Assembly (NCBI GenBank): GCA_015179025.1
Contig: WHUX01000033.1
Coordinates: 124,001-188,000, forward strand
From: Terfezia claveryi
Taxonomy: Eukaryota > Ascomycota > Pezizomycetes > Pezizales > Pezizaceae
Direction of reading: 5' to 3'
DNA: 64,000 bases
Below are positions 28,111 to 60,150 of this stretch, piece by piece. The notes below the pieces were generated by a model. That model had not been told where the DNA came from and searched no databases. It worked only from the letters and a program-made list of their open reading frames with translations. Made by a program: the position numbers and the translations under genes. Positions within the stretch are counted from its first letter, which is position 1. Every line of letters begins with the position of its first letter.

Positions 28111-28204
28111 CAGATTGGGAACCACCTACTCACTCAAAAACTCTTTCCTTAGCTTATCAGAAATTTCACCTTCGCTTATATACAATTCTTCAGGCCTTCT
28201 GCTC

Positions 28205-30510: not shown

Positions 30511-31683
30511 ATTGGTATAATGCATTTGGGCATACAGCCAATATATACCTAGCTGCATATGCTAATGGTGAGCTCTTACCTAAGGCACCCGCCAACTTTG
30601 CATGCAATGTATATATTATGTTAAAATCAACTAATAATACCTCATTCGCTCTTTCTCATGCTCTCTCTACTAGGGTATTTGAACTCATATATAGTGATCT
30701 AAGTGGCAAGCAGCCTATCGCATCTTATGGTAACTCTCTCTATTATATCATGTTTATAGACAATTTTACCCGCATGGCATAAATGCACTATCTAATAGCC
30801 AAATCTGATGCAAACCAAGTAATTATTAATTTTATTACCTTTATCCAAAGGCAGTACAATACCGCTATTCTGGCTGTTTTAACTGATAACAGTGGAGAAT
30901 ATATCAAGGTTGATACTTACTTCAAACAATAAAATATAAACTATATAAGGACACTACCTTATTCTTATGAATCAAATAGTATTGCAAAATACTTTAACTA
31001 CACAATATAGACAATAGTTAGAGGCATGCTTACCAATATCTCAGATAAGAGGTTGTAGGTGGAAGCATGCTCAACTACTATTTATTTGAAGAATCACCTT
31101 CCACATTCACATCTCTAAGGGAAAACACCCTATGAAGCCTTGTATGAGGCAAAACCATCAATTAGTTATTTACACCCTTTTGGACAGCATTGCTTTGCTC
31201 ACATCTACATGGAAAATAGACTAAGTGGCAGTAAGCTTCTCCCACAGGCAGAAAGTGTGATATTTGTTAGTTATATGGACAGTACTACGGAGGCGCGGAA
31301 CAAAAGTTTTTTCCCCTTTCCTATTTGGGAGTTGCATATGCAGGATAATGCATGCATGGATACTTGGCATATGCATAGGCATTCACGCATAAGTATTTAC
31401 GAATATGGTCTCAGTGCTATGACTTTCCCACATTATCAGTTGTCTTACCTCACTGTCCAACCTCTCAATTTACTAGTATCGCCGGTATCTTAATTGGCCA
31501 GATATCAACTCTTCTCCAACTATGGAATTCATTATATATCAGCCCTTCCTCGACCCGTAACCCTTCAACTAACTCTTCCCTAATATCTAATTTATCAAGT
31601 ATATTGCCCTTCTTCACCCTTTTAAATTGCTTATATTAACCTCAATTTCCTAGGTATCAACTCTCTAGTTGCATACCCCTTAA

Positions 31684-32045
31684 ACCTGCCAATCAAGCAC
31701 CCCACAACCTGCCAATCGAGCACCTCCTGAACCTGCCAATCGAGCACCTCCCGAACCTACCAATCGAGCACCTCCCGAACCTGCCAATTAAGCACCTCCC
31801 GAACCTACCAATCGAGCACCTCCCAAACCTGCCAATCGAGCACCTCCCGAACCTGCCAATCAAGCACCCCACAACCTGCCAATCGAGCACCTCCTGAACC
31901 TGCCAATCGAGCACCTCCCGAACCTGCCAATCGAGCACCTCCCGAACCTGCCAATTGAGCACCTCCCGAACCTACCAATCGAGCACCTCCCGAACCTGCC
32001 AATCGAGCACCCCCCGAACCTGCCAATCGAGCATCCCCCAACACC
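31684..32045 (+). repeat. 24-bp minisatellite upstream of the Tc1 transposase
   Basis: About 15 copies of ACCTGCCAATCGAGCACCTC plus CCGA, a 24-bp unit, lie directly before the transposase ATG at 32,058. The open minus-strand frames (GRFGRCSI repeats) are artefacts of the unit length. Confidence 0.92.
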
Positions 32046-32057
32046 CCCCCAATTGGG

Positions 32058-33898
32058 ATGTTTGATATTGTGTCTCGCGCTCAGGCAGTGATCTTGCGAT
32101 CTATGGGAGAGGCTCTGGCCATTATTCAGCAGCAAACTGGAATAACTCCAAGACATGTCCGGAATCTCTATAATGAAGCACAGCAAAGGGGGTGGGAATC
32201 TGGCACCTTATTAAAAATAGAGCACGTCCAGAATAGGGATCGCTGTGGGAGGAAAAAAAAGATCACTCCCACAATGGAGCAGGCTATTGTGGATGCAGTC
32301 ACTAAAGATCGGTATGGTCGGGAGAAGACACTTGTCCAGCTTGGCTTACAGTTTAGTATCTCATCTCAAAGCATATTCCGGATTCTCCGCAAAAAAAAAT
32401 TCCGCAAAACAAAGCCCACAAGAAAACCCGGCCTCACCAAAGATATGAAGGTGGCCAGGTATCTCTTTGCTAAACAACATCAATATTGGACACTTGAAGA
32501 TTGGAAGTCTGTAATATGGACTGATGAGACTTCTATCCTGTTAGGCCATCGGCGAGGTAGTTATCGAGTATGGCGACGTCCCAATGAGCGGTGTGTTAAA
32601 TCCTACATTAGAGAGAGATGGAAGGGGTATTCGGAGTTCATGTTCTGGGGCTGTTTTACCTATGACTTCAAGGGGCCCTATCATATTTGGAAGACTGAAA
32701 CTGCTGAGGAGAAGAGAACTGCCAACGAGGATATCACCTGTATGAACAGTGCTATTGAGCAAGAGGCGAAGGCTGAATGGGACAAAAAAATGGCACTTAG
32801 AGGTACCAAGCCTGGTCGAAAACCACAATGGAGGTTCACTGCAGACAATGGGGTATTTGTCCGAACCTCTAAAGGTGGTATTGATTGGTATCGATATCTC
32901 AACTGTATTCTTTTACAGAAGCTTCTGCCTTTTGCTGATGCTCTTAAGTATGCTGGTGTCCCAAATGTCATTGTCATGGAAGACAAGGCCCCATCTCATG
33001 CATCTCCACATCAGCGGCCACACTTTGACGCTACCAATGTACAACGACTTATCTGGCCAGGCAACTCACCTGATCTGAATATGATTGAGATTTGCTGGGC
33101 ATATCTCAAGCGCATAACCACGAAAAAGGTAAATTTTCCAATCCCCAACACCCCAATCCCCCGAACACCCCAATTCCCTGAACACCCCAATCCCCCGAAC
33201 ACCCCAATCCCACGAACACCCCAATCCCCCGAACACCCCAATCCCCCGAACACCCCAATTGCTAATAACTGAAATAGGGACCTCTCACTTCCCGCACGGC
33301 AGCTGAGCAAGCATGGAAGAATGCATGGCATGACCTTGAGCAATGGAGGATTCAGCGTTGGATTGAACGCATTCCCTACCATATCTAAGAGGTCATCAGA
33401 CTTGAGGGTGGAAATGAATATTCTGAAGGACACCCTCTTGTGAAAAGAGATAAAGAGTACTGGATTGCAATCCACCGTGTGCGGCAGCTCCGTATTCAGG
33501 AGAATAACAAGATCCACAAGAATGCATGGTCGCTCTTTCAATGCGCTACGGTCGGATTGCCAGCCAAGTATATTGCACATCTTAAGTCTCTCGTTGGTAT
33601 TCAAGAAGTTGTTGATCTGGAGGATCTTAACACTGATGAATGGAGGCATATGCCGGAGACTGACCAAATTGTCAGTGTTGATCCGATTGATATCATGATT
33701 TCAGCTAGTCCTAAAGGCCGAAAAAAGAAGGCCCCCAAAGATGGTGTTCAGAAGCGTGGGAGGAAACTAGGGCCTTGGATATATAAGGTGCGCTTCATGC
33801 CCCTATCAACACCCGGTACGAGTTGGGAGGGGGTGAAGTGGGATGGGTGTGTGAGGTGGGCGGAGGGCGAGAGCATTGTCACAGTAGATACTTGCTAG
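32058..33898 (+). pseudogene. Tc1/mariner DD34E transposase, one intron, one stop
   Basis: Exon 1 (32,058-33,128, 357 codons) begins with two helix-turn-helix-like regions (ALAIIQQQTGITPRHVRN, then LVQLGLQFSISSQSIFRIL). The catalytic motifs are VIWTDETS, VIVMEDKAPSH and WPGNSPDLNMIE. There are 34 residues between second Asp and Glu, so DD34E. A GT-AG intron (33,129-33,277, branch-like GCTAATAAC) leads to exon 2 (33,278-33,898), which keeps the frame and adds IQRWIERIPYHI and a basic C-terminus. The only defect visible is TAA at 33,386-33,388 in exon 2, consistent with a CAA codon changed by C-to-T. Total length would be about 563 codons, long for Tc1 but typical for fungal DDE_3 proteins. Confidence 0.88.
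33129..33277 (+). repeat. Minisatellite inside the transposase intron
   Basis: The 149-bp intron consists largely of about seven copies of a 16-bp unit CCCCGAACACCCCAAT between GTAAAT and a normal branch site and acceptor. Confidence 0.85.
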
Positions 33899-34114
33899 TC
33901 GTAGTTAGCCGACCCGAATCCGAACTGATATGCATATGCCAAGTATATATGCATGCATATGCATGCATATGCAGGGTTATCCCAAAGAAGAAAGGGGAAA
34001 AGACTTTTGTTCCGCGCCTCCGTACTATATATAGGATACAGCTTAAAAATAAGCATATTAAGACAATAAGAGTAGCTCTTTGCTCATTCTCTCTAATAAG
34101 TATGAGCTTACCAG

Positions 34115-34305
34115 TGAGCAATCAAGCAAGCTTACCAGCGAGCCATCAAGCAAGCTTATCAGCAAGCAATTAAGTAAGCTTACTAGTGAGCAATCAAGCA
34201 AGCTTACTAGCAAGCAATCAACTAATGAGCTTATAAGTGAGCAATCAAGCAAGCTTATCAGCGAGCTTACCAGCAAGCAATTAAGTAAGCTTACCAAGCT
34301 TGAGG
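34115..34305 (+). repeat. 24-bp coding minisatellite in Copia
   Basis: About eight imperfect copies of GAGCAATCAAGCAAGCTTAC plus CAGC, a 24-bp unit, encode a Ser/Lys-rich repeat (LTSEQSSK) between integrase and reverse transcriptase. Confidence 0.87.
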
Positions 34306-42889: not shown

Positions 42890-43484
42890 CACCCTGATAG
42901 AATACTCCATGAACAACATTACAACACCTAAATGGAATGCTATTGGCAACAAACCACCCGAAGTTCCAATGTCCCCATCTGGCGATTCAGGTGGTCTAAA
43001 TCGAATTTATTGTTTTATATACAGGAATAGCTCGTTCAATCTTCCACCATCAAAAATATAGAATAAGTTGGAGAAATTGCAGTGGAAAGTTAGCAGCAAC
43101 CTCACAAATATTCGCTTATTAGATCCGGGCGTCGTGGAATTTGGAGGAAGGCGGAACCTGGGAAGAAGTGCTTGGGATAAGAGGCAATTCTAGAAACAAA
43201 CTACTACCGAATTTGCAGGGGATGTCGAGGCTGCGGCGATCATTGGTACAACTACGGGGCAAATCAGTCTGATTAAAATCCATGCTCCTTTCTGATTAAT
43301 TCCACGATAATATGCTTTGAATCATGTAATGCTTCACTAGCTATGCTCCTATACCTTCATCACTTTCTGGTGATGCAGTCTCTTGTCCTAGTGGTTATTT
43401 AAACTGCTCAAAGTCTTGCCTATATTGAAAAAGTACCAGAACAATCCAGTGCAATTCAACCATCCGTTGCGCATATGATCACTC
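42890..43484 (+). pseudogene. Unidentified decayed ORF
   Basis: From ATG at 42,912 a frame reads NKPPEVPMSPSGDSGGLNR and, after TAG near 43,060, KLEKLQWKVSSNLTNIRLL, then another TAG near 43,189 and a stop near 43,294. It was contiguous with 25,880-26,564 before the Copia insertion. I do not recognise the product. Confidence 0.4.
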
Positions 43485-43737
43485 CACCTCTAGCATGCAG
43501 CTCGAACATTACTTAAGAATGGGGCAATTCTAAAATGCCCCCATTGTTAAGTAATGTACACGGCAGGGCAATCCCACCCACGCTAAAATAACTTCTTGGC
43601 ACACATTATGTCTTCAGGCTGGGTGGCGAAGACTGTTCGTGCACGCAAACTTTAGTCTTCCGTGCTGATAATAAAGACTACTACGTGCCGTGCAATATTT
43701 GTCTTCCGTGTTGATAATGAAGACTGCTACGTGCCAT
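43485..43737 (+). repeat. Left terminal inverted repeat of the KDZ element
   Basis: Begins CACCTCTAGCATGCAGCTCG. Positions 43,506-43,557 are themselves an imperfect palindrome (ACATTACTTAAGAATGGGG with its complement). It then carries direct repeats of about 54 bp containing GTCTTCCGTG...GATAAT and CTACGTGCCGTGCAATATTT, which continue past the inverted repeat to about 43,800. Confidence 0.93.
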
Positions 43738-44506
43738 GCAATATTTGTCTTCCGTCTTGATAATGAAGACTACTACGTGCCGTGCAATATTTGTCTTCAA
43801 GCTGGAAATGTAGACTACTTCGCTCATTTAATAACATCATGATTATTTTACCTTCCACTCCGTGCTTGAAGATTTCACGTCACGTGCTCGATTTGAGCAC
43901 TGCTGTCGCCATGATATGATGGCTTCAACTCTACAATTGTGATTGAAGATGCTGACCGCCGTCTTCTTCTCTATGGTCAATACTGCCTCCATTGCGTTTT
44001 CTACTCCAATTGCGAAATTAAGACCAGGTGATTAAGACAATCTGTATTGTTCTCCTACCACCCTGGGCTAGGTGCCCTTGACAAGTCAAGTAACTACCAT
44101 ATACATCTCGGCCTGTTGACTTCATATGAATTGATATGACTGTCAATGAATATGTAATGTAATATAATTTCAAGGGGCAGAACAAATCCACTCGAAAGAT
44201 ATCGAGTGATGTTATATGCACTGATATGTATGACCTGAATTATTGGTAGGATATGATATGATGCTATATGTGTTCATATGATGGCATATTTCTACCTGGT
44301 TTTTTAGCGAACTACGCATGGCATGGTTGCATATGTGTGCGAATTATTTTGCTTAGGTGGGTTGCTGACTGTTTATTTCTTTCTTCTCCTTCACCCAAAC
44401 TTGGTATCCACATAGTATACACACATCCCTACACCACCCTGCCCTATATATCTCTATCACCGTGATCTCTTTATACAACGCAACGATCGAATACCAATCA
44501 CTAAAT
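43738..44506. other. Subterminal region, left
   Basis: Further copies of the TIR direct repeat to about 43,800, then AT-rich sequence with many CATATG motifs (44,120-44,290). No gene is seen. TATATA at about 44,445 lies 60 bp before the ATG of gene A. Confidence 0.5.
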
Positions 44507-45736
44507 ATGGAATGCTCAGTGCCTGGCTGTACTAAATCCTATAAAGGGAAGTCGGCAAATAGCAGCTTACAGCGACACCTGAAGGCATTACACAAAGACT
44601 ATGTACTTCAGAGTAATGAACAATAGCCTGTACGAGACCCCAAGACTGTACGTAAAGAAATCAATGCTCAGTATAAAGCCAAATACCCTCGCCGTGGACT
44701 CGCCTTGACCAGGATGAAGCAAATCAAAGGTTTGGCTGAGGAGCTTTTAGAGAAGGAAAACCTAGCTCGGAAGCCTCAAAGATTGCTTCCACCAGTACTG
44801 AACGCAATGGTTGATGAAAGAAATGTGTATTGGATCTTAGAGGAGAGATATGGTCTATTTGTGGGCAGGTTAAAAAGGATATATGATTGGAACTGGGCGG
44901 CGAAAGTATGTATAGAGCGCAATTGGCATATATCATTCTGGATTGTTAACAGAAGCTATGTAGAAAGTTGCCCGATTCTCAAAGCAACCCATATTCGATG
45001 AGGAGGTTGGAGATGAATGGGAAGTATATTTGAGCTACAGCCTGCAGATCCTGGAATACCGAAGTCAAATGAAGGACTACCAGGCTTCAGAGGAAGCATT
45101 TGATTATAGACTTCAACTTTAGAAAGAAGACTACACGGCCACCAGGACAACGCGAATTCAGGAGGAAGCCGAGATACTGTATAGACAGAAGTATGAGTCA
45201 CAATACCAGGATGATTATGACTATGAAGCTAGGGATAATAGTACTACCGGTCCCAAGCATAGACTAAGCCTAGGCAAGAGCAACTATCCAGAACCTGACA
45301 TTCTCCCAGAGGTTTTAGCTTGGCGGGTACAAGGTATTTTGCCAGAGTTGGGCCGGTTGATAGTGTCTGATGAGTCTACACTTCTGCGTGCTGCAACTAG
45401 ACTTGGGATTCTCAGAGCGAATGGGGGGGCAGAAGCTGCTTTTACGAGTGAATGGTTAGGCCCAGGGTATTATGGTCATAAAGGTTTGTCTTACCTGATG
45501 TTAACACAGGTATATTAACTATTGCTAACAGTTTAAAAGCCGAGGATACACTTCTAGAACTAGCCTTCCAGGTCCAGGAAAGGATCCCGAAGGCTCCAAT
45601 AGAAACTACACCAGTAAGGTGGTTCCAATTTGTTATAGTTCCGGAGTTACTGAATTTGTTGATTATGGAAGATCTCGAGATTGCATATGAGGAGGCAAAT
45701 GAAGTGAGATTACAAAGTACAGTCGAAGAGTTGTGA
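44507..45736 (+). pseudogene. KDZ passenger gene A: C2H2 zinc-finger protein
   Basis: ATG at 44,507 starts CSVPGCTKSYKGKSANSS followed by LQRHLKALH, a single C2H2 finger (C-x4-C ... H-x4-H) in the first 33 residues, like the DNA-binding fingers of chromatin and transposon proteins. TAG at 44,624 interrupts the frame. The frame continues with a basic-helical segment (RMKQIKGLAEELLEKE). A 58-bp GT-AG intron (44,906-44,963) joins in frame to EEVGDEWEVYLSYSLQ. A second TAG lies at 45,120. A one-base deletion in a T run at 45,485-45,487 shifts the frame for the last 83 codons, ending in TGA at 45,734. Beyond the finger there is no recognised domain. Role unknown; it may bind element or host DNA. 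Confidence 0.65.
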
Positions 45737-45815
45737 GGAACCTGAGCAGGAGAGCAATTGTAGTTAGTATGCACCGGCGATGGTTGCATATGGGTGGGAA
45801 GTTCTTGTAGTGGTA

Positions 45816-45977
45816 GCTCTCCTCCTACCTTAGTTAATAGTTATGTATACCTAGTTGCGTACGGGTTTGGCAGATTAAGTTGCCTCGCCATTGAATCCAC
45901 CCGGGTTTCCGGGTGGCTCCTCATGGCCCCCCTGATAGGGCCGCATTGGAGTAACAAGTATATAAAAAAAAAAAAGA
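45816..45977 (+). mobile_element. 5'-truncated LINE copy inside the KDZ element
   Basis: A 162-bp insert matches the LINE 3' UTR (TTGAATCCACCCGGG, GTGGCTCCTCATGG, GGAGTAACAAGTATAT) and ends in an A run. TTGTAGTGGTA at 45,805-45,815 and TTGCAGTGGTA at 45,978-45,988 are the target duplication with one C/T difference. It shows that LINE activity postdates arrival or assembly of the KDZ element. Confidence 0.87.
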
Positions 45978-46235
45978 TTGCAGTGGTACCTAGCTCGAGA
46001 AATGTAAATCGTTTATCGTATTACTACTATAAGGTTGTTTGTTAATGATAGGGAGCCAAGCATTCATTAAATCTTGATTGTGCACTTATGTTTGTGTATG
46101 TCCTCCTATGTAGTTTGGTTATGTTTAATAATCACCGCTGCCTTTTCAACATTCTATAACAACCACATATTCCATCAGGCGAGGCCCTCGATAACTCACC
46201 TATACCCACAGACACCCATCAGTAAATCAATTAGA

Positions 46236-47023
46236 ATGTCTAATGTTGAAGAAGTGGAAGGTGATGAGTTTGAAATCAAAAGCAAAGAGATTGTGGAAAC
46301 CTTCGTTCAAGGAATTCGGGGTTTATGTACTGAACAAGGAAAGGACTTCAGATATACAATGAATGATATCGTGAAGGGCCTACCTACTATAGCTATGAGA
46401 ACCAGGACATATAAGCCAAATGCCTGGAACATGAGCCTGGGAGTGGCTGCAAAGGAGATGCCAGCCGAATTGAAGAAAGGTGGTAAAGAGCTACGAGGCC
46501 AACTGGCCAGGTATGCTAAGGAGCATGTATACACTGCGGAAAGAAAAGAGGAACTCGATGACATAGTTGAAGCGGAGAAGCAAGATCTTGTTTATGGGGT
46601 TAAAATTGTCACAGACCTAGTAGTGAAGGCACGGAAAAAGGCCTTGAAAGCATTGTCCAACTCGGTAAGTAACTAGCCAATCGCAAAGCCAATCCGAAAG
46701 GGTACTGGTAGATAGAGCACTCTTAACTAACCTATACCTTACAGTGTAATTATGCTCAGGAGTTAGGGATTCATATAATCTTAATGGCAGCTTCTTCAGA
46801 AGATAAACTGCATATTGCAACTGAGGGGCTTGTGGAGAAGTTTGCCGTCCTCCAGGACGTCAAAAAGGTTGGTATTCCGCAGTTTGAGCTGCTCATTCGT
46901 GGTGGAATGATTGAAGAGGAAGCCAGGGAGGCTGTAGCTCAAAAAGCGGTTAAAAGTAGAGACCAAGCAAGGAAAGAATGTACTAATGCTTTACTGAAGG
47001 CAATAAGTGAGTTAGTCCTGTAA
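46236..47023 (+). CDS. KDZ passenger gene B: helical protein, unknown
   Basis: Exon 1 46,236-46,664, a canonical 80-bp intron (GTAAGT ... ACTAAC ... TTACAG; 46,665-46,744) and exon 2 46,745-47,023 give about 236 codons with no stop, so this is the best preserved passenger gene. Upstream codons in the same frame reach back to 46,074, but the ATG at 46,236 follows a typical leader and opens MSNVEEVEGDEFEIK. The protein is charged and almost entirely helix-like (EELDDIVEAEKQDL, EEEAREAVAQKAVKSRDQA). There is no membrane segment or known motif. Function unknown. Confidence 0.6.
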
Positions 47024-47097
47024 TTCTCCCGGTCTCTAATACCTTTAACTTACACTACTTCAATCAAGACGAACAGATAAAATGCCCAAATAAACCG

Positions 47098-47361
47098 ATG
47101 AAGTCAGTTCCACGCCAGTCAGGTATGTTTCTGGAGAGCCAAAAGAATGCTGGGCTGAGAGTGTCATGGCTGAAGGAATGGGGGGATCAACAACAGATGG
47201 AGAAGGTTATTCAATCACAGGATGCTGGGAATATCCGAGCAATCTTGAAGGCTTTGGCAGAGAAGCAGCTACAATTCAGTGAAGGCGAGAGTGATGATGT
47301 CAATATGGAAGAGCAGGATGTGGACAGTTGGGATGTGGAAGGCCAGGAAGGTGAGGAATAG
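47098..47361 (+). CDS. Small acidic ORF downstream of gene B
   Basis: An 87-codon ORF with an acidic C-terminus (EGESDDVNMEEQDVDSWDVE). It may be a separate gene or the last exon of gene B. An ATG at 47,079 in another frame runs into TAA after three codons. The evidence is weak beyond codon openness and its place in the cassette. Confidence 0.4.
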   Translation: MKSVPRQSGMFLESQKNAGLRVSWLKEWGDQQQMEKVIQSQDAGNIRAILKALAEKQLQFSEGESDDVNMEEQDVDSWDVEGQEGEE

Positions 47362-47733
47362 GCCAATAGCTTGTTGTGAGCTAATAGATTGTCGTTGTGT
47401 AGTTCATATATGAGTTTGATACTTAATATGTGCCAAGAAACAATTATTCTTTCTTACATAACCGTCAAAAATGCGAAAAAAAAAAGCCACCCTATACGGG
47501 TATTACAAAGAAATCAAACAAACCCTATGCAATCGAAAAAAAAAAATAAAAATAAACAAAGCCACCCATTGCAACTACCTATTTAAAAGAAATAAAACAA
47601 AACAAGAAAAGAAAAAAGAATAAAAAGAATAACAAAATAAAACAAAGACACCCCACGTCTCACTCATGAAAAAGAAAAAAAAGAATAACAAAACACCCCA
47701 CATATTACCCATGAAAGAAAAGCAAATACAGAG

Positions 47734-48557
47734 CTAGAACTTCATTTGATCTAGTTGTGATTGAAGGTCCTGAACCTCCCTCTCAGAAATATGCCCATAT
47801 CTACGCTTTTTGGTCTGGGAATTCTTTGATGGTTTCTGAGATTTATTATGCCGATTCACCCAATTCTGCAACATTTCCAGGCGTGAAAGACTTCGGTCAA
47901 TTTGGAATTTTGCACGGGGCTTTGGCTTCATTAGCTTAGTGATCTATGAAGGATTAGCTAGGGAATCTCTGATAGATCCAACGAGGGCAGAGACCATGGC
48001 ATGGAAGACTTCTTCGGGCATCTCGTCAATAAACATGCCAATCTCATGGCCAGGCCCTAATTGCACCGGGCCTAGCTCTGGGACCACCGGGCCTAGATCT
48101 GGAAGAGCTTGGCCATGGTGTAGTTGGTCAATACCAAGAGAAGTTGCCGACCCCAATGGTTCTGAGTCTGGAGATGCTGGTATTACTGCCTCAGGCTCAT
48201 TTGGTATATTGAGTTCTTCTTCGGCAATCATATCGAGAATTCCCTGTTGCAGTTCTTGTCGAGGGGCAGGTATGCGGCTATCAATCGCATTCTAAAATAA
48301 GTACTATTATATTAGTCTTTCTATCCAAAAGTATAGATTTACTCGAGAGAGATCATACACAAAACCTTTATACGTTGATCACTCCAAGGCCTGAGTCGGC
48401 TTCTTAGATGATCAAATTCTTCTTTAGTTAGACTGGTCAGACTACCATCGCGTTCCTGGATGGTATCTGCAGCCTCCTGCACAATCTTGCTCCGAATGAG
48501 GTTCATAGGAACCCCCATTAAGTTTCGAGCCATTATATTAGAACCAGAATATGACAT
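47734..48557 (-). pseudogene. KDZ passenger gene C: unknown, one intron
   Basis: The only passenger gene on the minus strand. Exon 1 (48,557-48,366) starts MSYSGSNIMARNLMG and includes SLTKEEFDHLRSRLRPWSD. A 74-bp GT-AG intron (48,365-48,292) keeps the frame into exon 2 with PAPRQELQQGILDMIAEEEL and a Pro-rich segment. TAG at 47,946-47,944 interrupts, and the same frame continues with a basic tail (KPKPRAKFQIDRSLSRLEML) to 47,734. The TAG could be the true stop or a C-to-T mutation. Product not recognised. It converges with gene B. Confidence 0.5.
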
Positions 48558-48737
48558 TATTGTAATGTTGGCTAGTAGAGTGTAAGTGAGTGTGTCGGTG
48601 AAGTGACTGTGATGAGGTTGGTTTGAGTAGAGTAGAGTGGAGGCGTTACGGCATGATGTGTTTGGTAACTTACTATGGGATTTGGAGTCATATGAATATG
48701 AATGACAACACATGGAATTTCCACAAGGTTCTTGCAA

Positions 48738-48995
48738 GTCTGGCTTGCACTAGCCCCTCAGTAGGTGCTGATAAGAACCCGATATCAAACTTCTGGCTTT
48801 AGCGGTTTGTTTTCACCACACCACACCCACAACCCTACAACCAGAGCCCAACCTACAACCAGAACAGACTCACCCCAACCTACTGGTACTAGTGCTTCAT
48901 CCTCCAATTTGTCCCACTACCGTGCATCAACCCCGCATTCACCCACCACATCTACAATGATCCCCCCAATCTCTTAGTCACTGACAAAGAAGAAC
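48738..48995. promoter_or_regulatory. Divergent intergenic region between genes C and D
   Basis: Genes C (minus) and D (plus) diverge from about 48,560-49,000. CA-rich leader sequence (48,815-48,960) precedes gene D, as in many fungal 5' UTRs. No defined motif can be claimed. Confidence 0.35.
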
Positions 48996-49008
48996 ATGTC
49001 TAAAGTAG

Positions 49009-49787
49009 GTGCTAATACAACGAAAAGTAAATTTGACTGTGAAACTAATAAGGGAGGTTGTACTTTCTGTTGAAAACGAAAGTGCAAGGCTAAAGGCGAG
49101 ACAAAGAAAATACAAAAGAGGCTACGCATCACAAATTGCAAATGAGCAAGACACTCCTGGAGCAACAGAGCCAACAGAGGAAGAAATGGGGAAGTGGATT
49201 CTAGCTCAAGAGCTTGGACGTGAGGTAAGGCATGAACCTAAGTTCTGACATAATATGTCCTGACCTAGGAGCAGGTTTTTACATTAGGGGATGATGAAGA
49301 AGCTATCCTGCATGCGTATGTCTATGACAATGGTTTGCGAGGAAGTAGGCCCAAAGAGCTATTTTTGGAACTCTTAAGCAAACTCAATGTCGAGGATATG
49401 CCACAGTTTAAGGTCGTATTCAGAAAATCAAGGTAAGTTACCGTGTTTCTATGCAGTATTGCCGGTATCATAGTAGGAAGCCTGCATAAAGTATTAACGG
49501 TGGAAGCTCGATAATAGAACCGAATCCAGAATGAAGCTCGAATTGCAAATCAAATGGAGAAAATGGTCAAAGTTGAGGCTCTACAGGACATGACATTCCG
49601 GATGAGGGCATGGCTTTCCTCAATGAAAAAGAGGAAGGAAGGCGCAAATGCCCTGATGAGCCAAAGTCTATTTTGTTGGGATTCTGTATCGGTTGATGAA
49701 GGCATTGATATGCTAAACTCGTTGAAGCAACAGATAGCCTCTTTGGATGGTGGTGAAGAGGCCCTTGTGGAGGCAGGGTTTCCTTAG
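49009..49787 (+). pseudogene. KDZ passenger gene D: unknown, probably three exons
   Basis: Exon 1 (from ATG 49,009, or 48,996 in another frame) ends at 49,224 with EEMGKWILAQELGRE. A 44-bp intron (49,225-49,268) leads to exon 2 with VFTLGDDEEAILHAYVYDNG and KPELFLELL-like sequence to 49,432 (donor GTAAGT). Exon 3 begins near 49,516 (IQNEARIANQMEKMVK) and ends in TAG at 49,785. The phases of exons 2 and 3 do not match with the visible acceptors, so an indel is likely. The alternative 48,996 frame has a Cys-rich start (CETNKGGCTFC then TGA). Not recognised. Confidence 0.5.
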
Positions 49788-50653
49788 TAGATATATAGGG
49801 CTTTTTTGCTTATAGTAGTTTCTTTTGTTTTTTGCAAAGCTAGTAATAGGGTATTAGCACTACAAGCACGAGGGCATGAGAGATTACTACTACACATGGC
49901 ATATTAAGGAATCACTATGTCTGTTCAATAAAAGCATATGGGAAAAAAAATTGCAGCGTCTTACAGAATTGAATTTGGGTACTAACAATTTACAAGTTAA
50001 CAACTACCAACTAGGCCAAGCACACTAAACAATTAATTTGTATTTAACTATTCTATATATATATTATAATAAAGATATATACTATATACCTACCATATAC
50101 ATCTCTAATACTTGAAACAACAACAAGCAAGAGAATTGTTTACAATAAGAAGTCTATAGCAGGCATTACTTAGATCTGATCCTGAAGTCTAAAAGATATA
50201 AACAATAGTAAGGTTGCTTTCTAAAGTTTAACTAACTTGAAGGTAAAAGTTATTTACTTAAAAACTATGAATACTAGCTAAAATATCTACATACTATGCA
50301 ATTTACCATCCATTAGTTTAAGGAATAGCAAATCAATTGTAAAACGAAAATTCTATTACTTAACCAGACTACTATTACTTCAAGAACTGAGACTGCCCAG
50401 GCAAATCGTACAATTGGATATTAAAAATTACCATATTGGGACATGCCAAGACCGCACCTACGTACAAGACCTAAACCCTTGATGCGGCCTCGGCATTCAC
50501 CCATATGCATGCACCCTCCAAGCCACCACCACCCGTGCACACCCCCATTCACGTCACAACTTTTATCTAGTCTATGACCGATATATATAGTAAGGAGTGA
50601 GAGGGCCCTATTCCATCAACCATCTTGTGTATCATTGATATACTAATAGGACG
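49788..50653. other. AT-rich spacer inside the KDZ element
   Basis: No gene. Strongly AT-rich at 49,960-50,400, then a short GC-richer block (50,440-50,600) immediately before the minisatellite. Confidence 0.5.
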
Positions 50654-51885
50654 ATACAGCCTGTGTTTTTTCTATCACACACGTAGGACGGGTTATGTGT
50701 GTGATACAGTCTGTGTTTTTCTATCGCACACGTAGGACAGGTTACGTGTGTGATACAGCCTGTGTTTTTTCTATCACACACGTAGGACGGGTTACGTGTG
50801 TATACAGTCTGTGTTTTTCTATCGCATACGTAGATGGGTTACGTGTGTGATACAGCCTGTGTTTTTTCTAAGATGGGTTACGTGTGTGATACAGTCTGTG
50901 TTTTTCTATCGCACACGTAGGACGGGTTACGTGTGTGATACAGTCTGTGTTTTTCTATCGCACACGTAGGACGGGTTACGTGTGTGATACAGCCTGTGTT
51001 TTTTCTATCATACATAGGATGGGTTACGTGTGTGATACAGCCTGTGTTTTTTCTATCACACACATAGGACAGGTTACGTGTGTGATACAGTCTGTGTTTT
51101 TCTATCGCATATGTAGGACGGGTTACGTGTGTGATACAGCCTGTGTTTTTTCTATCACACACGTAGGATGGGTTACGTGTGTGATACAGTCTATGTTATT
51201 TCTATCACACACGTAGGACAGGTTACGTGTGTGATACAGTCTGTGTTTTTTCTATCACACATAGGACAGGTTACGTGTGTGATACAGTCTGTGTTTTTCT
51301 ATCGCATACGTAGGATGGGTTACGTGTGTATACAGTCTGTGTTTTTCTATCGCTACGTAGGACGGGTTACGTGTGTGATACAGTCTGTGTTTTTCTATCG
51401 CACACGTAGGACGGGTTACGTGTGTGATACAGCCTGTGTTTTTTCTATCACACACGTAGGATGGGTTACGTGTGTGATACAGTCTGTGTTTTTTCTATCA
51501 CACACGTAGGACAGGTTACGTGTGTGATACAGTCTGTGTTTTTCTATCGCACACATAGGATGGGTTACATGTATAATACAGCCTGTGTTTTTTCTATCAT
51601 ACACGTAGGATGGGTTACGTGTGTGATACAGTCTGTGTTTTTCTATCGCACACGTAGGACGGGTTATGTGTGTGATACAGTCTGTGTTTTTCTATCATAC
51701 ATGTAGGACGGGTTACGTATGTGATACAGTCTGTGTTTTTCTATCGCACACGTAGGACGGGTTACGTGTGTGATACAGCCTGTGTTTTTTCTATCACATA
51801 CGTAGGACGGGTTACATGTGTGATACAGTCTGTGTTTTTCTATCACACACGTATGACGGGTTACGTGTGCGATACGAAGTGTCTT
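50654..51885. repeat. 49-50-bp minisatellite of inverted-repeat units (about 25)
   Basis: Each unit has ATCACACACGTA, a GGACGGGT loop, TACGTGTGTGAT, then ACAGYCTGTG and a T run. The first two blocks are perfect complements, so every unit can form a 12-bp stem. Two linked subtypes alternate irregularly: ACAGCC with six T and TCACAC, and ACAGTC with five T and TCGCAC. Long ORFs on both strands here arise from the repeat and are not genes. Confidence 0.95.
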
Positions 51886-52252
51886 TTGTTTTTGAAGAGG
51901 CAAAAAGGTTCTTCTGGCCAAGGCGTTTAAATCAAAAAGAATTGGGTTAATTCTTGCGGAACCTTTCTAGAAATGTATGGAACGTCTCAACTGAAAAGCA
52001 GGCTGAGGGGACGCATCGAAAAGAAAAGACCATGAAAGGAAGGTGTTGGAAATAGTCAAGGACAGAAAGAAGTTTAGGGTAAGTGATGGAATGGAACTCG
52101 ATTGTTTGTAGAATGTTCCTACAAGCAACCAGAACATCACAAACAACATGGAACATAAAAGGCAGAGTTACCCGGGCCCTCTAGAACCAAATGGGAGCTA
52201 GAAAGAATGAAGTGGACGATGCTAACCCACCCAAATTCGCCACACCCTTCAG

Positions 52253-52260
52253 TATAAATA
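52253..52260 (+). promoter_or_regulatory. TATA element of passenger gene E
   Basis: TATAAATA lies 57 bp upstream of the gene E ATG, followed by a CT/CA-rich leader. Confidence 0.5.
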
Positions 52261-52316
52261 CCCCCGATCCCCTCTATCTTCCTTACAACATTCAAACACC
52301 ATTTCTCCACACAACA

Positions 52317-53639
52317 ATGTCCACCGAAATCGTCAACATTGCAGGGAAGTTAGTGAAGAGGAGCCAAGGGCTCCGCGAAAGATATAGAAACGAGCTTGCT
52401 AAGCTCGATGGACCCAAAAGGTAGGAGTTAGCCTTGAAAGTTGCTAGGCTAACTCAAGAACAGACGGAACAGATCTCATTTGCAGCACAGGTCCAGAAGG
52501 AGGTCATCGAGGCCTGGACAGACGAAGACTATGTAGCAATGCAAGTGGATAGGGTGACTGCCGACGCTAAGCTCGGCTTCACCTCAATCATCCTCCCCTT
52601 AGCGGACATCCATTCAGAGTCGGAGCGAAGGAAAGGTAAGGTAAAGAACAGGCTGGAAGCAACCTGGGGCGCGCAGTGGGAAGACCAGGTGGGGGACCTC
52701 ATGCTGCCATGGCCGGCCGAGGAGTTTCTAAGGGAGCTTGCAGTGTTCTCGGAGAAACAAGTGGATTGGGCAGCAGCAAAGCTTATTTTGGAGGCTAGGG
52801 TTAAAGAGCGGCTGGCCGCTAAGAAGACAAAGAAAGTTGCTTGGCTAACCTGACGTGATATAGCTAATAGAGCTATATCAGAAAGACGCAAAGCGAGAGG
52901 GAAAAAGGCTGTGGCTGGTTCACAGCCGGAAACCGATGTTGGGGAAAATTCCGTTGGTCGGATAACCCTAGTTGGGGAAAATTCCGCTGGTCGGATAACC
53001 CTAGTTGGGGAAAATTCCGCTGGTCGGATACAAAGCCCCGCTGGCCGGGCACCTATAGACACCCAGACCTTACTTTCTCCTTCTCAACTTTCTTCTTCTT
53101 CTGTTAGTGAAGCTGCTGCCCAAGATCAAAACGTGGATCTTGAGAACATTGACAAGGAACTTCCTGGCTCTGAGCCGGTTGTGGAAACGCAGAGGTCGAT
53201 CCCCTACGGATCTTCTGCATCACCCCCGAAGGAAGCCGAAGCTGAATCTGGAGCCGAGCCTAGACTGAGCGAAGAGGTGAGAATGGATAAAGGTAAGGGT
53301 AGGGAGGTTGACGCAGGAGAAGCGAAGGAAGCAGAGGCTGCTCTTAAGACTCGCAAATGTAAGAGAGCTGCAAATGAGGTCGAAAAGAGCACTGTGGAAA
53401 AGAGGAGGAAATATGGGTTAGAAATCCCCATTATTAACTTGGACGTAGAGGAGGGGGTGGAAGAACTAAAGCATGAGGCGCTTGACGAGGAAGAGAAGGA
53501 CGAAGCTTTGGCAGTAGAGGAAGCTGTTAAAGTGTTATTTCGAGGGAAGGGACGGCCGGATAAGGAAACGGCAGGGAGGATGTTGAGGAAGATGATGAAG
53601 GTGATGAAGGCGGAAGTGGTAGAGGTGGATGATGATTGA
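52317..53639 (+). pseudogene. KDZ passenger gene E: acidic protein with GENS repeats
   Basis: A single uninterrupted reading phase of about 440 codons from ATG 52,317 to TGA at 53,637-53,639, broken only by TAG at 52,422 and TGA at 52,851. The N-terminal 180 residues are helical (IVNIAGKLVKRSQGLRERYR). The middle has three 33-bp tandem repeats encoding VGENSxGRITL (52,935-53,025). The C-terminal half is charged, with a nuclear-signal-like KTRKCKRAANEVEKS and acidic patches ending EVVEVDDD. No domain is recognised. A nuclear DNA- or chromatin-associated role is possible from composition alone. Confidence 0.55.
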
Positions 53640-53672
53640 TTACACACGTAGTAGGATTACGTGTGCGATGGG
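53640..53672. repeat. Single hairpin unit just after gene E
   Basis: ACACACGTAG, TAGGA and TTACGTGTGCGAT directly follow the gene E stop. This is one diverged copy of the inverted-repeat core that makes up the array at 50,654-51,885. Confidence 0.75.
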
Positions 53673-53887
53673 AAAAGTGATGAGGAAGGAGTTGATTACG
53701 GTTTCCTTTGTTTTATTTGTATAGTTATAATATACTTTATCATCAATATATGCATCGTTCTTCTTCGCAGTATTCGACCAGGTCTTGGCATGAGACTCGT
53801 GCACTCGTATATATTTGTAACATTCATAGCCACCCATCACCCACACACCTACACACACTTTAGAGATCTCTCATCATAAGAGATACC

Positions 53888-56800
53888 ACAATAGTTATTG
53901 TCCTCCGGAAAGGGGTAAGACCCAAACCAAAGAAGCTAACAGGGAAACAATTAAAGAAGCATTTTGATTCTCAGCTCGATGATGCATACGAAATGATGAA
54001 TTCCTTAAGGATTCAACCAATACCAAACCTCCAGTTAAGGTCTGCCAACCAGGAGGGGGAATGGGTCGACTTAGAAGCCAATGATCTTGGCAATACTCTT
54101 AATGAAAACAATGAAGAGGATCCAATATTGATGGCTCGGCGCCTACTTCAGACCAATTCTAATTCTATAAAGAGGAGGAATGCCAAAAATAGAGACCAGT
54201 TGGCACAGAACTGGAGCAAAGTCAGGCCAATAATGGTTCAGTATGCCACCGGAAGAGCTTTACCAGAGTGTGACTGCCAGGAAAGAAAGGAGAAGGTGAT
54301 AACCATAATATCATTGACTGGTAAGTAGACAAGACACTACAGATATCCTAGTAGTTTAAAGCTAACTAGTTTCCAACGCAGAGATGAAGAAGATATCCTA
54401 TAGTTTTTGTAACTGCGGGCAGCATAGTGCTAAACTATTCTATGACAACAAATTCCCTTCCAAACCTCTTCGTGCCTCTATAGTTTTCGATATATGGCTT
54501 CTGCAACTATTACATGAACAGCTGATTCATGGAATTGGCCGAATTCATGCATGGAGTAGAGGATTACAGAGCTGCTTAGAAGCCAATTCGCCAGAGGTGG
54601 TGCTTGATTTCTATAGATCAGTAGGCTTCAATTTTTACCTATGCCCAACTCACACTTTAGAATTGAAACTTACTTTAATGTACTCATAGCTCCTAGATGC
54701 ATATTATAACTGGAGGGCTGTGAGTTCGGAGTGCGAGAAGTTTGTAGCAACGACTCTAGCTCAAACAGCCCCAGAACATTGCTGGGATGCCGGTGCTTTT
54801 GAAAACTTATGTCCTGCATGTTTCAACTTCTCTCCGGATGACAGAAATGGCCTACAGGTATATAGAGGTGAAGATCAAGGCCCCTTGAATGACCAGACTA
54901 GCTCTCCAAAAGGAAAGGTTGAATATAATGTTGTATTCGTTTCAATAGATGGGGACATGCAACTTACCCGGTTTAAGGATGTCACCAGTCATAAAACCCA
55001 TTTCCAAGAGTGGGAAGTTCTTCCAAGCAAACTTTTTGTTAATATCGATAGGCGATTTTATGGTACATCTAGCCAACCAGACCCTAGTGATGAAGAACAA
55101 CCAATTGAAGCTGAAGTGGAAGAGCCTGACCAGTGTGCAAGCCAGTTTAAAGCCTCTAGGGGATGGGAAAGTAGTACATCTACAAAGGAGTTAGCATCAC
55201 TGAAGAGTTTTGATGAGACAGGGTTAATGGGTATGGTTTGTCACCATGGCTGCCCACTCCGGTACCTGAATATATATACTGGAGAGCGGGCAAGACATGG
55301 TATTGCCCTACTGCAAAGCCTGCTCAAGGATCTACCCAGTGGCACAAAAATACGTTGTTGCTATGATATCTCATGTATATTTGCTACTACGGTCAAGGTA
55401 GGTTACCACCGTCTCTTTGTTATCCTCGCTGTTCACACTGAATTTATACTGAAGATGTTTTCTTAAAGGCTAGCACCAAAACTGGCCTCAGTTTTGACCT
55501 GCCGAGTTGGGAGATTTCATATGTATGCATATGAATACAAATGTCATGTGTTGTACAATACCCAACGCTCGATGGGTTGGGGAAACATGATAGGTGAAGA
55601 GTGCAAATCTGATTGGTCGCTAAAAGGCTATCTTGTCACCTCAACACGCGTTTCCTCAGCTCCTAGAACGCGGCAACGAATTGATGATCATGCTTGCTTT
55701 GTGGTTAACATGACTCGTGAGAGATTAGGCTATAGGCTAGGTCACCGGCTTACTAAGGCCCAGGCAGATCTAAAAGCCTCATCAGGCATTTTGGAACGCC
55801 TTTACACGCAAAATAATAGGAAGGGAACTAAGTTCACCGAAGAGTATTTTGACATCCAACTAGGGCTGCAAGAGGTATACTATCGGGAAAACAGGTAAAT
55901 AGCAGGAGCTCAGGGGCCAGCTTACATGGATATTTGGTTAAATAACTAATGTAAATTTTAGAAACAAAGCTGAGCCTGTAGATCCTAATGATGCGATTTT
56001 TACTGCTATCCTGAATGAAGAGGAGATTCTCAGGGACTTAGAAGAGGATAGATGGGCTGGTATTCCTACTCGTCGAAAGCTCTCTCCACCGAATCAAAAG
56101 CTTGACCGGAGAGACCTCGAACAAGTATCAAAAGGGCATGCTGCAGTCCGCAGAACAACACAGCTTCTTACTCAACAACACCAGACCATTGATGACTGGG
56201 TGGATCGGCAAGCACCTGATAGTAAATACAAGATATACGAAAACAGGAAGATCATGCGAGAACTACCCAATATTCAGTGAGGGTTAATACAAAACACAAC
56301 CGCACGGAAAAAGGAGCTTGAAGCAATCAGGAGTAGAGTTGGCCATAAGAACTCTAAGAAGTTTATGACTTGCCTTAATCAACGTTGGAAGGCAGTTAAT
56401 ATTGGCATAGCTGAATTCAACGAGCTTATAGAAAAATTACCTATTGAGCAATGCCCTAAAGAGCTTGATATATGAAAAATAAAGAAGGAAGGGTTGACTT
56501 TAGATACGTTCTGGGATGTAAATTGTGTAAGGATTACAGATGACTGGGCATGCCAGGAAGTAGTCTGTGAGGGCATTGCAGCACTTTCTCGTCAAAGGCG
56601 AGCTCAGGAAGAGATCATCCGCATAGGTATTGAGATAGCCAGAGTTTTTGATTGGATTGGTAAGGAGACATACGGAGCTACACATTCTGATACCAATGGT
56701 TGGCTGCGCCTATGGACAGTCCAGCGTCTCCGGCATCTACAGAATATTGTGACAGGCTTTCTTAAAGCTCAAGCGAGATATGGGCTTGAAATAAGCAAAA

Positions 56801-57043
56801 CACAATGAACAATGATTATGGGTGAGTGGAGTGGAGTGGAGTGGTGGCACGACCTGCTAAGCTACAAAGTGACTAACCCAATATTCTAATATAGAACTTC
56901 AGAACAGAATCCACACTATGCTTACCAATATATGGAGTGCGGGTATAGAGGTCAAGGAATGTGTAGAAGAGGAAGATTTTGGTGATGATGATGAGGTCAT
57001 TGGAGAACTGTTGGCACGAGAAGCTGCCAGGGACTTTGATTGA
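53888..57043 (+). pseudogene. KDZ transposase (multi-exon, interrupted by stops)
   Basis: The N-terminal part (53,900-54,315) ends ALPECDCQERK. A 68-bp intron joins in frame to ISYSFCNCGQHSAKLFYDNK, the paired CxC cysteine cluster that precedes KDZ domains. TAG at 54,687 follows MYS, then LLDAYYNWRAV. CPACF leads into FVSIDGDMQLTRFKD (first catalytic Asp), GLMGMVCHHGCPLRYLNIY and CCYDISCIF, then AYEYKCHVLYN and MGWGNMIGEECKSDWS, the motif order of the KDZ family. A 68-bp intron follows at 55,895. The C-terminal region is helical (FWDVNCVRITDDWACQEVV, WLRLWTVQRLRHLQNIV) and ends in TGA at 57,041 after a last intron near 56,825. TGA codons at 56,278, 56,473 and near 56,804, and a phase mismatch at 55,400-55,470, show inactivation. 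Confidence 0.85.
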
Positions 57044-57109
57044 ATTGTGAAGTTTTTAGGTTTTATTTTTTAAGACACGGCTATAGATTTGAGTTCATAA
57101 TAATTATGT

Positions 57110-57425
57110 AGCTGAAGCCACGAAACCATCATATGAAGGTATATCGTCCCGTAAAAGCATATACATATGAGACCTGCACTTGCCCGGCAAGACCGAATAA
57201 GCCGGCAAGACCGAATAAGCCATCAGACCGAATAAGCCATCATATGAAGGCATATCGTCCCATATAAGACTTGCACTTGCCGGCAAGACCGAATTAAGCC
57301 ATTATATGAAGGCATATCGTCCTATATAAGCATATACATATAAGACCTGTACTTGCATTGGCTCAGCAACACTGAATAAGCCACCATATGAAGCCGTATA
57401 GTCTAGTACAAGCGTATATATAATA
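57110..57425. repeat. Subterminal repeats, right end of the KDZ element
   Basis: About four imperfect copies of a block containing CATCATATGAAGGYATATCG, CATATAAGACYTGCACTTGC and CAAGACCGAATAAGCC. Such subterminal repeats usually serve as transposase-binding sites. Confidence 0.7.
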
Positions 57426-57615
57426 GTATCATGTGGAAGAGAATATTGCCGTGGCCGATGAAAATCTCAAAAACTATGAAGAGAATCAGATAATATATTA
57501 GGTTTGGATCATGGGAAGTGAATAGCACGTACATCTCACGTGGTGAGGATAAGCTCAACTTAATCAGATTCTTTTGCTAGTGTGTGCATTTTATAAGGGG
57601 TGGACTAATCTGAAG

Positions 57616-57868
57616 ATGGCACGTAGCAGTCTTCATTATCAACACGGAAGACAAATATTGCACGGCACGTAGTAGTCTTTATTATCAGCACGGAAGACTA
57701 AAGTTTGCACGCACGAACAGTCTTCGCCACCCAGCCTGAAGACATAATGTGTGCCAAGAAGTTATTTTAGCGCGGGTGGGATTGCCCTGCCGTGTACATT
57801 ACTTAACAATGGGGGCATTTTAGAATTGCCCCATTCTTAAGTAATGTTCGAGCTGCATGCTAGAGGTG
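57616..57868 (-). repeat. Right terminal inverted repeat of the KDZ element
   Basis: Reverse complement of 43,485-43,737 with about three differences, including the mirrored palindrome at 57,796-57,847. Confidence 0.93.
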
Positions 57869-60150
57869 TAATATATATGTTCGGAGCTAGCCACAAGAAA
57901 TTTAACTTCGCAGAATGACAGGGCCAGCCAGCTGCAAGCCCACACGATTTCTAGCTGGCCCAAACCCTGCGGGAGAATTCAGAGCGACCAGTCCCCCGGC
58001 GAGTATGGAGGAAATGTAACTTATTGAATATGACCGCTCAAGTAAGTCACCTATTAAGAAATCTAATATACAGATCAGCAACAAGCTCCTGAAATTCTCC
58101 CAAAGTGGCATTAAGTATCTTGCTTGGATCCATCCCCAATGCTTCCCTGAGTTCAGAGTAATGCCGCTCGAACTCGTACTCAAGATTATAAGTTTTTTTT
58201 TTTTTTTTTTTTTGTTTATTTTGGAGCCTGTAGGTACCCAAATTAGCATCAAATACAGAAAAAAAAACTTATGAGTTAGCTGAAATTTGAAATTAGAGAA
58301 ATTCGTTTCAGTATATATTCCTTAGAATTGATCACCATGCTACAACAATATTCCAAAGCCTTCATTTTGAGCGAAATCAACTTGCTGACCATCCATCATG
58401 ACGTCTCAATCGCTTTCCCCAACACGGGAACTACATCCGCTTCCACCAAATTTTACGCATCCAGAGTTAAGTAGCTCAGTTGGACAAATATACAATACAA
58501 ACTGCTTTGTCATGATGAGAAGCTACATCACGAAGTAACCTTTACTCGAAGCCATCTGCCAATGTAAAGATAATTATCAAACCCGTCGCTATTTAAAATG
58601 TAGGCAGTTGAGCCAGATTGCACTACCGATGCCGTCCTACAAATATCAGATATATCCTCTCGTGAGTGGCCTGGCTGGCGGATAGCACGGGCCCTTGCGA
58701 GAGCTGTTAATTGTCTCGCAGCTCATAATTGCCTAACTAGTAATATCCAGATATATCGTGGATATCACTTTCCCTGCGGGGGGGCTTGCTGGGAATATAT
58801 AACTTTTTTCATAAAAAACCTGCGTATATTTAACTTCTTCCCTGCGTGGCGCTACACTTGCCAACACCCCTCCGGTCTGCCTCGAAAAATCAGAATACCA
58901 GGTAGAAAGGGTTAGAACTAGCGAGCTTATGAAAGGACGGTTTTTTTTTTTACCTGGTCTCTTGGAAGGGCTACTGTCTGGATAACGACACATGGGAACC
59001 ATACAAGAATCTGAAGGGCTGATTTTAATTTGGAAATTTTTCATCTGGATAACCGTCTTAAGCCTTGGGACTCTAATATTATTTTTGTGAGATTTTTTTA
59101 TTTTTCCTATTGTACTGTAGGTATTAGGTTTTGGGAATTTCTCGTATTTTTTTTGTTTCCTGTATTTCTCATGCCATGTTGTCCCAGGGGTGCAATGAGA
59201 CGTACGAGGCTGCGTTTCGGCTGTGATACATGAGGACGGGTCTTCAAACCCCATCCATTGTTATTAGTACGGAATACAAATAAGTCTACTCATATCATTG
59301 ATCAGGCTCTTGCAGACAAGAACTTTTGACGAAGGGTGTCATGGGGTAATATCCAGCCCTTCTATAGGGCCTTGAGCCAATTCAGAATGACTCTAGAATA
59401 CCCCTTTGGACTCTAGGTACACTGGGAGCGCTGTAGTACAATTGGATTTAACAATGACTCTTTCAGGTAACTGTATACCATATAATACGGACAAGAACCC
59501 TGAGCAGTAAAAGGTTCTTATGAATGATTCTAATTCCCATGATACGTCTATAGACCTAAGAAGGTCATACGGTTTAAGTTTCACAAGGATCCGATTGATA
59601 GATTCTATTGTTATGTCCAGATCAATATAACGTCCTATAAGAGGTCAAGGGTTACCCTGTCCTGTGTTACCCTCAACTGAAGAAAAACTCGGTAAAAATA
59701 ATTAAAAAAAAAAAGAAATGAAGACCTGAGGGCACAGTTTAGACCTCAGTGTGTCCGGTAACACTATAAGAGGGTGGTCCAGCAACCAATAGCTTGGAAA
59801 TAGAGCTGTCCGGAAAAGTTATTCAAAACAATACTTTCAAAGTTCTATCTAGGCCTATTCAGCGCGCTGAATCCATTTCTGAAGTCCTTTTTATGATCGG
59901 AGCAATACTCATTGGGAGAATAAGGTCTCAAAGTCGGGTATTATAGGTCCACGAGGAGGTTTACCTATCACGGGTCATAACTCCCATGCATAATTAGGGG
60001 ATTGAGATGAACTAAGATTCTATAATCTTCTTTGCATAAAGGACATTCCAATGATAATCTAATCAGACCTATGGTTCTCTGTTCATAGAGTTATGTGCAG
60101 TTGAAAAATTATTTTCAATGGACACTAGGATATAAACTATGAGTACTGTT
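57869..60150. other. Intergenic, no supported gene
   Basis: A run of about 22 T at 58,195-58,215 and shorter T runs near 58,941 and 59,145 suggest old retrotransposed inserts, but no element is recognised. The 173-codon minus ORF at 59,254-58,733 lacks any domain and is Lys/Ser-rich. The 63-codon ORF at 59,584-59,393 is likewise unidentified. Confidence 0.4.

Follow-up and report, generated by a model that had tools for sequence, protein, structure and literature searches.

The 64-kb window analysed here (the whole 64,000-nucleotide stretch, positions 124001-188000 of contig C257 of the desert truffle Terfezia claveryi) contains, at 43485-57868, a complete 14.4-kb copy of a KDZ transposon in which the transposase gene is accompanied by five passenger genes, A to E. 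The explanation that we favour on balance is that this is a KDZ transposon with five passengers, that one of them, E, is shared with other elements together with an adjoining array of palindromes, and that E would bind these palindromes and oppose silencing. The element gives an example of an ascomycete KDZ transposon with six genes, and its gene E is a passenger other than TET/JBP that appears to pass from carrier to carrier along with the adjoining DNA repeats.

A six-gene KDZ element between inverted ends

The original prediction, made from the letters of the window, had bracketed a KDZ transposase gene, a C2H2 gene, four further genes and a large minisatellite with two 253-bp inverted ends. 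Its coordinates proved exact for the ends, which are 253 nt each, are 99% complementary and terminate in CACCTC...GAGGTG, and genes B to E and the 1.2 kb of 49-bp units were likewise found where it had placed them (Table 1). In the genome assembly that we searched (72.56 Mb in 794 contigs), the element ends matched 33 places, counting only matches of at least 150 bits. Exact 8-bp target duplications flank two of the four complete copies, those on C38 (GATTTCGG) and C679 (TTTTACTC). A chance inverted repeat is ruled out by the 33 genome places and the target duplications. The window copy itself has GATCACTC at its left border and TAATATAT at its right, while its inverted sister on the same contig, C257b, has the reverse arrangement. 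Because the 8-bp duplications thus lie crosswise between the two inverted copies (window 43477-57876; contig 295894-310331), it appears that either recombination between them turned over the intervening 114 kb or the assembly contains a mis-join, and either would explain the swapped duplications. If the assembly is right, the contig records a 114-kb inversion arising from recombination between two copies of the element. Separately, the right-end 536 bp recurs inverted at the left end in the copies on C38, C43, C736, C552 and C211, while the window copy shares only 253 bp.

From left to right, the element consists of A, B, C, D, the 49-bp-unit array, E and the KDZ transposase gene. Two transposase exons of the window copy match the KDZ domain in Pfam (E = 1.9e-14 and 5.2e-10), and the exon-joined transposase of the C38 copy matches both KDZ (PF18758, 1.9e-34, 119.7 bits vs a cut-off of 26.6) and CxC1 (PF18802, 2.8e-7, 31.0 bits vs a cut-off of 26.9), confirming the predicted transposase. 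The C2H2 assignment of gene A fared less clearly: by inspection its start has a C2H2-like C-x4-C...H-x4-H arrangement, but the Pfam zinc-finger match (0.32) is under the cut-off. All five passengers had been called unknown, which holds for B, C, D (first exon outside the scan) and E, none of which matches a family above the Pfam cut-off, but not for A, in which an RTC4-like domain scores 1.9e-8, above the cut-off. Nothing useful about RTC4 in a transposon context was present among the literature entries found. The scan of 20 proteins (D minus its first exon) gave no Tet_JBP match, in line with the proposal of an ascomycete KDZ lineage with a passenger set other than TET/JBP. The public annotation joins genes A and B as a single 581-aa protein (P0035).

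The gene set travels with the transposase

Besides the window copy, three further complete copies were read between both ends: C257b (contig 295902-310323, inverted), C38 (2394-16770) and C679 (214582-234410). All four carry A, B, C, D, E and KDZ in identical order and are pairwise 97-99% identical outside gaps. Their differing flanks rule out an artefact of a single locus, and the presence of the same block inside the same ends in each of them rules out that the passengers are simply neighbouring host genes. The C679 copy is enlarged by two insertions inside the transposase gene, of ~0.17 and ~4.7 kb at window-equivalent positions ~54530 and ~55080, at whose edges ~12 bp of the element are repeated. 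On C224, a further pair of ends separated by 5.8 kb (interior unread) showed no match to A-E or KDZ in the genome searches. The copies on C160, C108, C43, C736, C552, C211, C14 and C240 are cut by contig ends, rearranged or partly read, and their retained parts keep the order; C43 and C736 have a common left flank and may be one locus assembled twice.

Older fragments, with protein identities of 57-87% (mostly 65-80%), also keep the order and strand of what remains, as seen in the linkage of B-C-D-E on C244, of A-B-C on C331 and C756, of B-C on C532, and of E upstream of KDZ on C478. Because these fragments retain their neighbours and strands, the gene set has remained linked while at least two subfamilies diverged. 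We regard it as virtually certain that the element is a real KDZ transposon whose genes travel together, and the expectation that A-E would recur together between such ends at other loci was borne out in all four copies read between both ends.

Gene E and its array form a block shared with a second element

The claim that the passengers travel with the transposase has to be qualified for E, which is not specific to KDZ, and for the minisatellite, which goes with E. Matches to E comprise at least 123 genome rows, grouped by hand into at least 73 places (96 of 175 candidates scored). On C747 and C784, E lies just downstream of an integrase frame (rve 7.3e-5, below the cut-off) that we take, by inspection, for Ty3/gypsy, while on C96 and C117 it lies downstream of a second, multicopy transposase-like frame. 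This second frame occurs at nine places (a hand grouping of 15 rows), and at six of them E follows downstream in the same orientation at a distance of 1.6-3.4 kb. The frame matches no Pfam family at the cut-off and nothing in NCBIfam, and from one motif we presume it to resemble a CACTA/tnp2 transposase. Membership in Plavaka was considered and rejected, as there was no Pfam match and neither C96 nor C117 is among the 127 Plavaka matches listed (123 of 598 candidates scored). Since relatives of E adjoin both a gypsy-like integrase and the second transposase-like frame, E is not a KDZ gene as such. A midpoint-rooted tree joins the KDZ E and second-element E as sister groups at 0.97, with support of 1.0 for each, and places T. 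boudieri next to them (1.0). A separate clade (0.99) holds the gypsy-like E, and C312 lies further out.

When the KDZ element is compared with C96, the matching DNA starts inside the array and stops at the palindrome on the E stop codon, with no match in the remainder of the 6 kb read outside this block. Identity between KDZ and C96 in this block is 93% across 1.29 kb and 87% in the final 0.66 kb, and in this final part C117 is 86% identical. E occurs with an array on C96, C117 and C44, where no KDZ is present in the stretches read. Counting palindromes with ≤1 mismatch per half, the window array has 16, C96 has 4, C117 has 1 and C44, the array of which has decayed, has 0. KDZ and the second element have E and the array in common as one block, and we consider it highly probable that the two constitute a transferable module. 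Palindromes of the same type also lie ~4 kb upstream of the second transposase-like frame (C96:75714-76385, C117:72618-73371), with 160-bp spacing on C96.

The sharp borders of this block, the unrelated flanks in its two carriers and the far greater abundance of E outside KDZ could also mean that E entered KDZ within an inserted and since decayed element (gypsy-like or the second element), as a nested insertion and not as a KDZ gene. We think this unlikely, given that the window contains no match to either the gypsy-like integrase or the second transposase-like frame, that E is in all four complete copies, and that in older ones it adjoins a KDZ exon (C86) or D (C244).

Mutation damage and selection on the passengers

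With the minisatellite and columns containing gaps excluded, C>T or G>A changes account for 75 of 81, 45 of 47, 29 of 40 and 166 of 185 singletons in the four complete copies, mostly at CpA/TpG or CpG, and the damage thus looks RIP-like (repeat-induced point mutation). In the window copy there are stops in A, C, D, E and KDZ and none in B, the counts including read-through of some introns. The original prediction had asked whether less mutated copies have intact ORFs (open reading frames). At least one genome copy aligned without stops for each of A, B and E and for D as far as it was covered (first exon omitted), but the transposase had stops in all five copies with a fully covered query, some of these being introns read through. 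The C38 transposase has one TGA within an exon (by inspection). An in-frame TAG at 54687, considered as a lethal stop common to the copies, was set aside, as it falls within a probable GT-AG intron (by inspection).

Between KDZ and the second element, the ratio of nonsynonymous to synonymous substitution rates (dN/dS) of E is 0.37-0.43, and between KDZ-type and gypsy-like E the proportions of nonsynonymous and synonymous differences (pN and pS) are 0.33 and 0.81, so that E is a protein under selection. More generally, distant pairs of E, B and D have pN of 0.33-0.41 vs pS of 0.79-0.90. Against the RIP-damaged copy on C244, dN/dS was 1.09 for B, 0.87 for C, 0.36 for D and 0.47 for E, values that RIP itself may inflate.

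These data also bear on the alternative that the passengers, as selfish hitch-hikers or as genes captured from the host, do nothing for the element and are kept only by the enclosing ends. Such an origin would fit the ratios of B and C, as well as the existence of distant B, D and A relatives (on C223, C401 and C335, respectively) where no KDZ of the same family was seen. It is nevertheless improbable in our judgement, because gene order persists in the diverged fragments and because the ratios of D against C244 and of E across its carriers are low. Distant relatives of B (36-40%; C223, L026 3143-3911) and of D (39-40%; C401, L030 2269-2756) show an excess of silent change, and neither KDZ nor the other genes of the element had a match in the stretches read around those on C223 and C401.

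Probable pairing of two groups of E with two related palindromes

The KDZ-type unit contains ATCACACACGTA-N8-TACGTGTGTGAT and the 72-bp gypsy-type unit contains ATCACTTACGTG-N9-CACGTAAGTGAT, both of which are perfect inverted repeats, and E is usually located downstream of the palindrome array. A pattern covering the KDZ and gypsy palindromes matched 143 genome sites vs 0 for its control, while the gypsy-type palindrome (≤3 mismatches) had 71 sites vs 0 for a reversed-pattern control. As many as 68 of these 71 precede an E start on the same strand by 0.61-1.24 kb. They belong to 19 of 53 E starts, which are N-terminal rows picked by hand with fragments omitted; among 20 clusters of gypsy-type palindromes, only one (C144) is without a listed E. 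The KDZ and gypsy half-sites agree in register at 9 of 12 positions (96 of 200,000 shuffles), and with a free offset the KDZ and third-clade half-sites agree at p ~0.03.

Several observations weigh against the explanation that we favour. Because the 19 gypsy-type E loci resemble copies of a single family, the 68 of 71 sites are not independent evidence: their proximity to E shows conservation, not independent origin. The remaining 34 of the 53 E starts have no gypsy-type site, and the old KDZ copy on C86 has E and no array. When the offset is left free, the agreement between KDZ and gypsy half-sites falls to p ~0.04, and that between gypsy and third-clade half-sites has p ~0.73. Within the third E clade, four loci of which were read, a palindrome consisting of GCTCTCACAAAGG and its complement occurs upstream at two places on C42 and one on C31, but the palindromes on C312 are located only downstream of E and C774 has none. 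Palindromes were also found on contigs with no E among the 96 of 175 candidates scored (C12, C23, C26, C50, C51, C54, C81, C99 and C118, among the ~50 of 143 sites listed), and a lone palindrome of the KDZ-array type is present outside the element at window 4298-4328. Moreover, E has no DNA-binding domain detectable by Pfam, NCBIfam or PDB sequence search, and the ratios of B and C against C244 belong on the same side. The poor fit of the third clade lowers our confidence both in binding by E and in the anti-silencing module described below. What speaks for pairing is thus that two groups of E each have one of two related palindromes, together with the block common to two element types. On these comparisons E may bind the array, a claim on which we are nearly evenly divided and which we hold only tentatively.

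The palindrome at window 4298 and those on contigs for which no E is listed could belong to users of the same system or be sites of a host factor, and for this reason the binder itself could be a host factor. The array would then be a promoter or enhancer of host-factor sites, and E, without binding the array, would be an accessory protein with a role in structure or transposition. bZIP proteins, for example, recognise ACGT cores; the half-sites hold ACGT, both the gypsy-type and the KDZ arrays are about as far from E as a promoter would be, and the third clade fits pairing poorly. We find this account plausible without being probable, since the E of KDZ and the second element and the E of the gypsy-like lineage each pair with their own palindrome, and since array and E are common to two element types as one block. 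The flanks of the window 4298 palindrome resemble those of site 3044 near the B relative in L026 (C223), and from these flanks it appears that another repeat family bears the KDZ-array palindrome motif.

Proposed mechanism and comparison with known systems

The element could work as follows. The CxC1-KDZ transposase would act on the CACCTC ends, thereby moving the element, while E, perhaps as a dimer, would bind the palindromes and act from there on the transcription or chromatin of the element so as to control or protect its transcription; gene A may help with DNA or chromatin binding. The most likely mode would be that E opposes silencing (methylation or heterochromatin) sequence-specifically, as VANC does in Arabidopsis. 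That anti-silencing is the purpose of E is a conjecture by analogy, and a doubtful one. We would be equally cautious about its extension, in which E and the palindrome array co-evolve as a transferable sequence-specific module for anti-silencing or transcription control, passed among KDZ, the second DNA transposon and a gypsy-like retrotransposon lineage, which would make it the equivalent of VANC in fungi, though not confined to a single transposon superfamily. If E does read the repeats, fungal elements would have a sequence-specific route of escape from silencing.

In excerpts of the sources, VANC of the VANDAL elements is described as binding a tandemly repeated motif and causing methylation loss, as shown experimentally, and its motif is reported in the unrelated element AT9TSD1 as well (PMC5735166, PMC10398659). 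As far as those excerpts go, the likeness to the truffle element is that of an element protein paired with tandem motif repeats in non-coding parts, which evolve rapidly in VANDAL. This arrangement within the same element was found here except in the old copy on C86. VANC differs, on the same excerpts, in being a plant protein with experimentally shown binding, and the truffle motif is a palindrome; the likeness described here is one of arrangement. VANDAL elements are Mutator-like. They are the carriers of VANC, whereas E is carried by KDZ, a gypsy-like element and the second transposase-like frame.

Starship elements resemble the truffle element as cargo-carrying elements of ascomycetes, but they have a tyrosine-recombinase captain and are usually much larger, whereas the truffle element has a KDZ transposase. 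Among the titles and abstract openings surveyed, there was no description of the truffle element, its passengers or E; the KDZ group was reportedly founded by a 2014 paper, which was outside the survey and may mention ascomycete KDZ neighbours. Terfezia is not named in the excerpts of Kojima 2025 (PMC12730594), and the word KDZ is absent from the main text of the mycorrhizal genome paper (PMC7550596).

Among KDZ elements, a close description in the excerpts at hand is that of KDZ1 from Cryptococcus neoformans, an element of ~11 kb with 241-bp terminal inverted repeats (TIRs), 8-bp target duplications and a CxC1 + KDZ transposase (PMC12810828). The truffle element is likewise long, with long TIRs, 8-bp duplications and the same domain pair, but KDZ1 is from a basidiomycete and no comparable passenger set is named for it in these excerpts (PMC12810828). 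According to excerpts of Kojima 2025 (PMC12730594), TET/JBP, an enzyme thought to undo methylation, is a fungal passenger that changes carriers, riding Kyakuja, Dileera and Zisupton as well as other transposon superfamilies, and the Ascomycota carriers named are Helitron and IS3EU and not KDZ. To that extent those KDZ elements resemble ours in combining a KDZ transposase with a passenger found on other transposon types, as E is, but they differ in the passenger, which has no match among the truffle element proteins scanned. The same excerpts give 8-bp target duplications for Zisupton and Dileera, and 7-bp duplications without TIRs for Kyakuja (PMC12730594); the TIRs and 8-bp duplications of the truffle element would therefore speak against Kyakuja as described there.

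Features of the window copy and neighbouring observations

Table 1. Features of the KDZ element and its borders, in window coordinates
Feature	Position	Strand	Description
Left flanking 8-mer	43477..43484	.	GATCACTC; target duplication, partner at sister copy C257b
Left terminal inverted repeat	43485..43737	+	46-bp tandem units from inside it (43655-43798)
Gene A	44507..45736	+	C2H2-like start (by inspection) and RTC4-like domain (PF14474); 3 exons; damaged
Gene B	46236..47361	+	No family; 3 exons; stop-free
Gene C	47944..48557	-	No family; 2 exons; opposite strand
Gene D	48996..49787	+	Cysteine-rich start (by inspection); several exons; no family for the part scanned; damaged
Minisatellite	50653..51875	+	1.2 kb of 49-bp units; 16 keep the palindrome ATCACACACGTA-N7/8-TACGTGTGTGAT with ≤1 mismatch per half
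Gene E	52317..53639	+	440-aa type; no family; single open frame in C38, two stops in the window copy
Single palindrome	53639..53669	+	Starts at the last base of the E stop codon; right edge of the block common to the second element type
KDZ transposase gene	53876..57043 (3' end approximate)	+	CxC1 + KDZ; multi-exon (by inspection); damage at the start codon and in several codons
Right terminal inverted repeat	57616..57868	-	536 bp (57333-57868) present at both ends in some copies
Right flanking 8-mer	57869..57876	.	TAATATAT; partner at sister copy C257b

In the protein set of T. boudieri, relatives were found for A (76% over 82% of the query), E (71%) and KDZ (34% over 31%). A second, diverged KDZ transposase (~26-40% identical, KDZ 1.9e-17) is present ~215 kb away on the same contig (C257:394500-401500). 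Elsewhere in the window, many further tandem repeats with units of 10-167 bp are located at 26600-34300.

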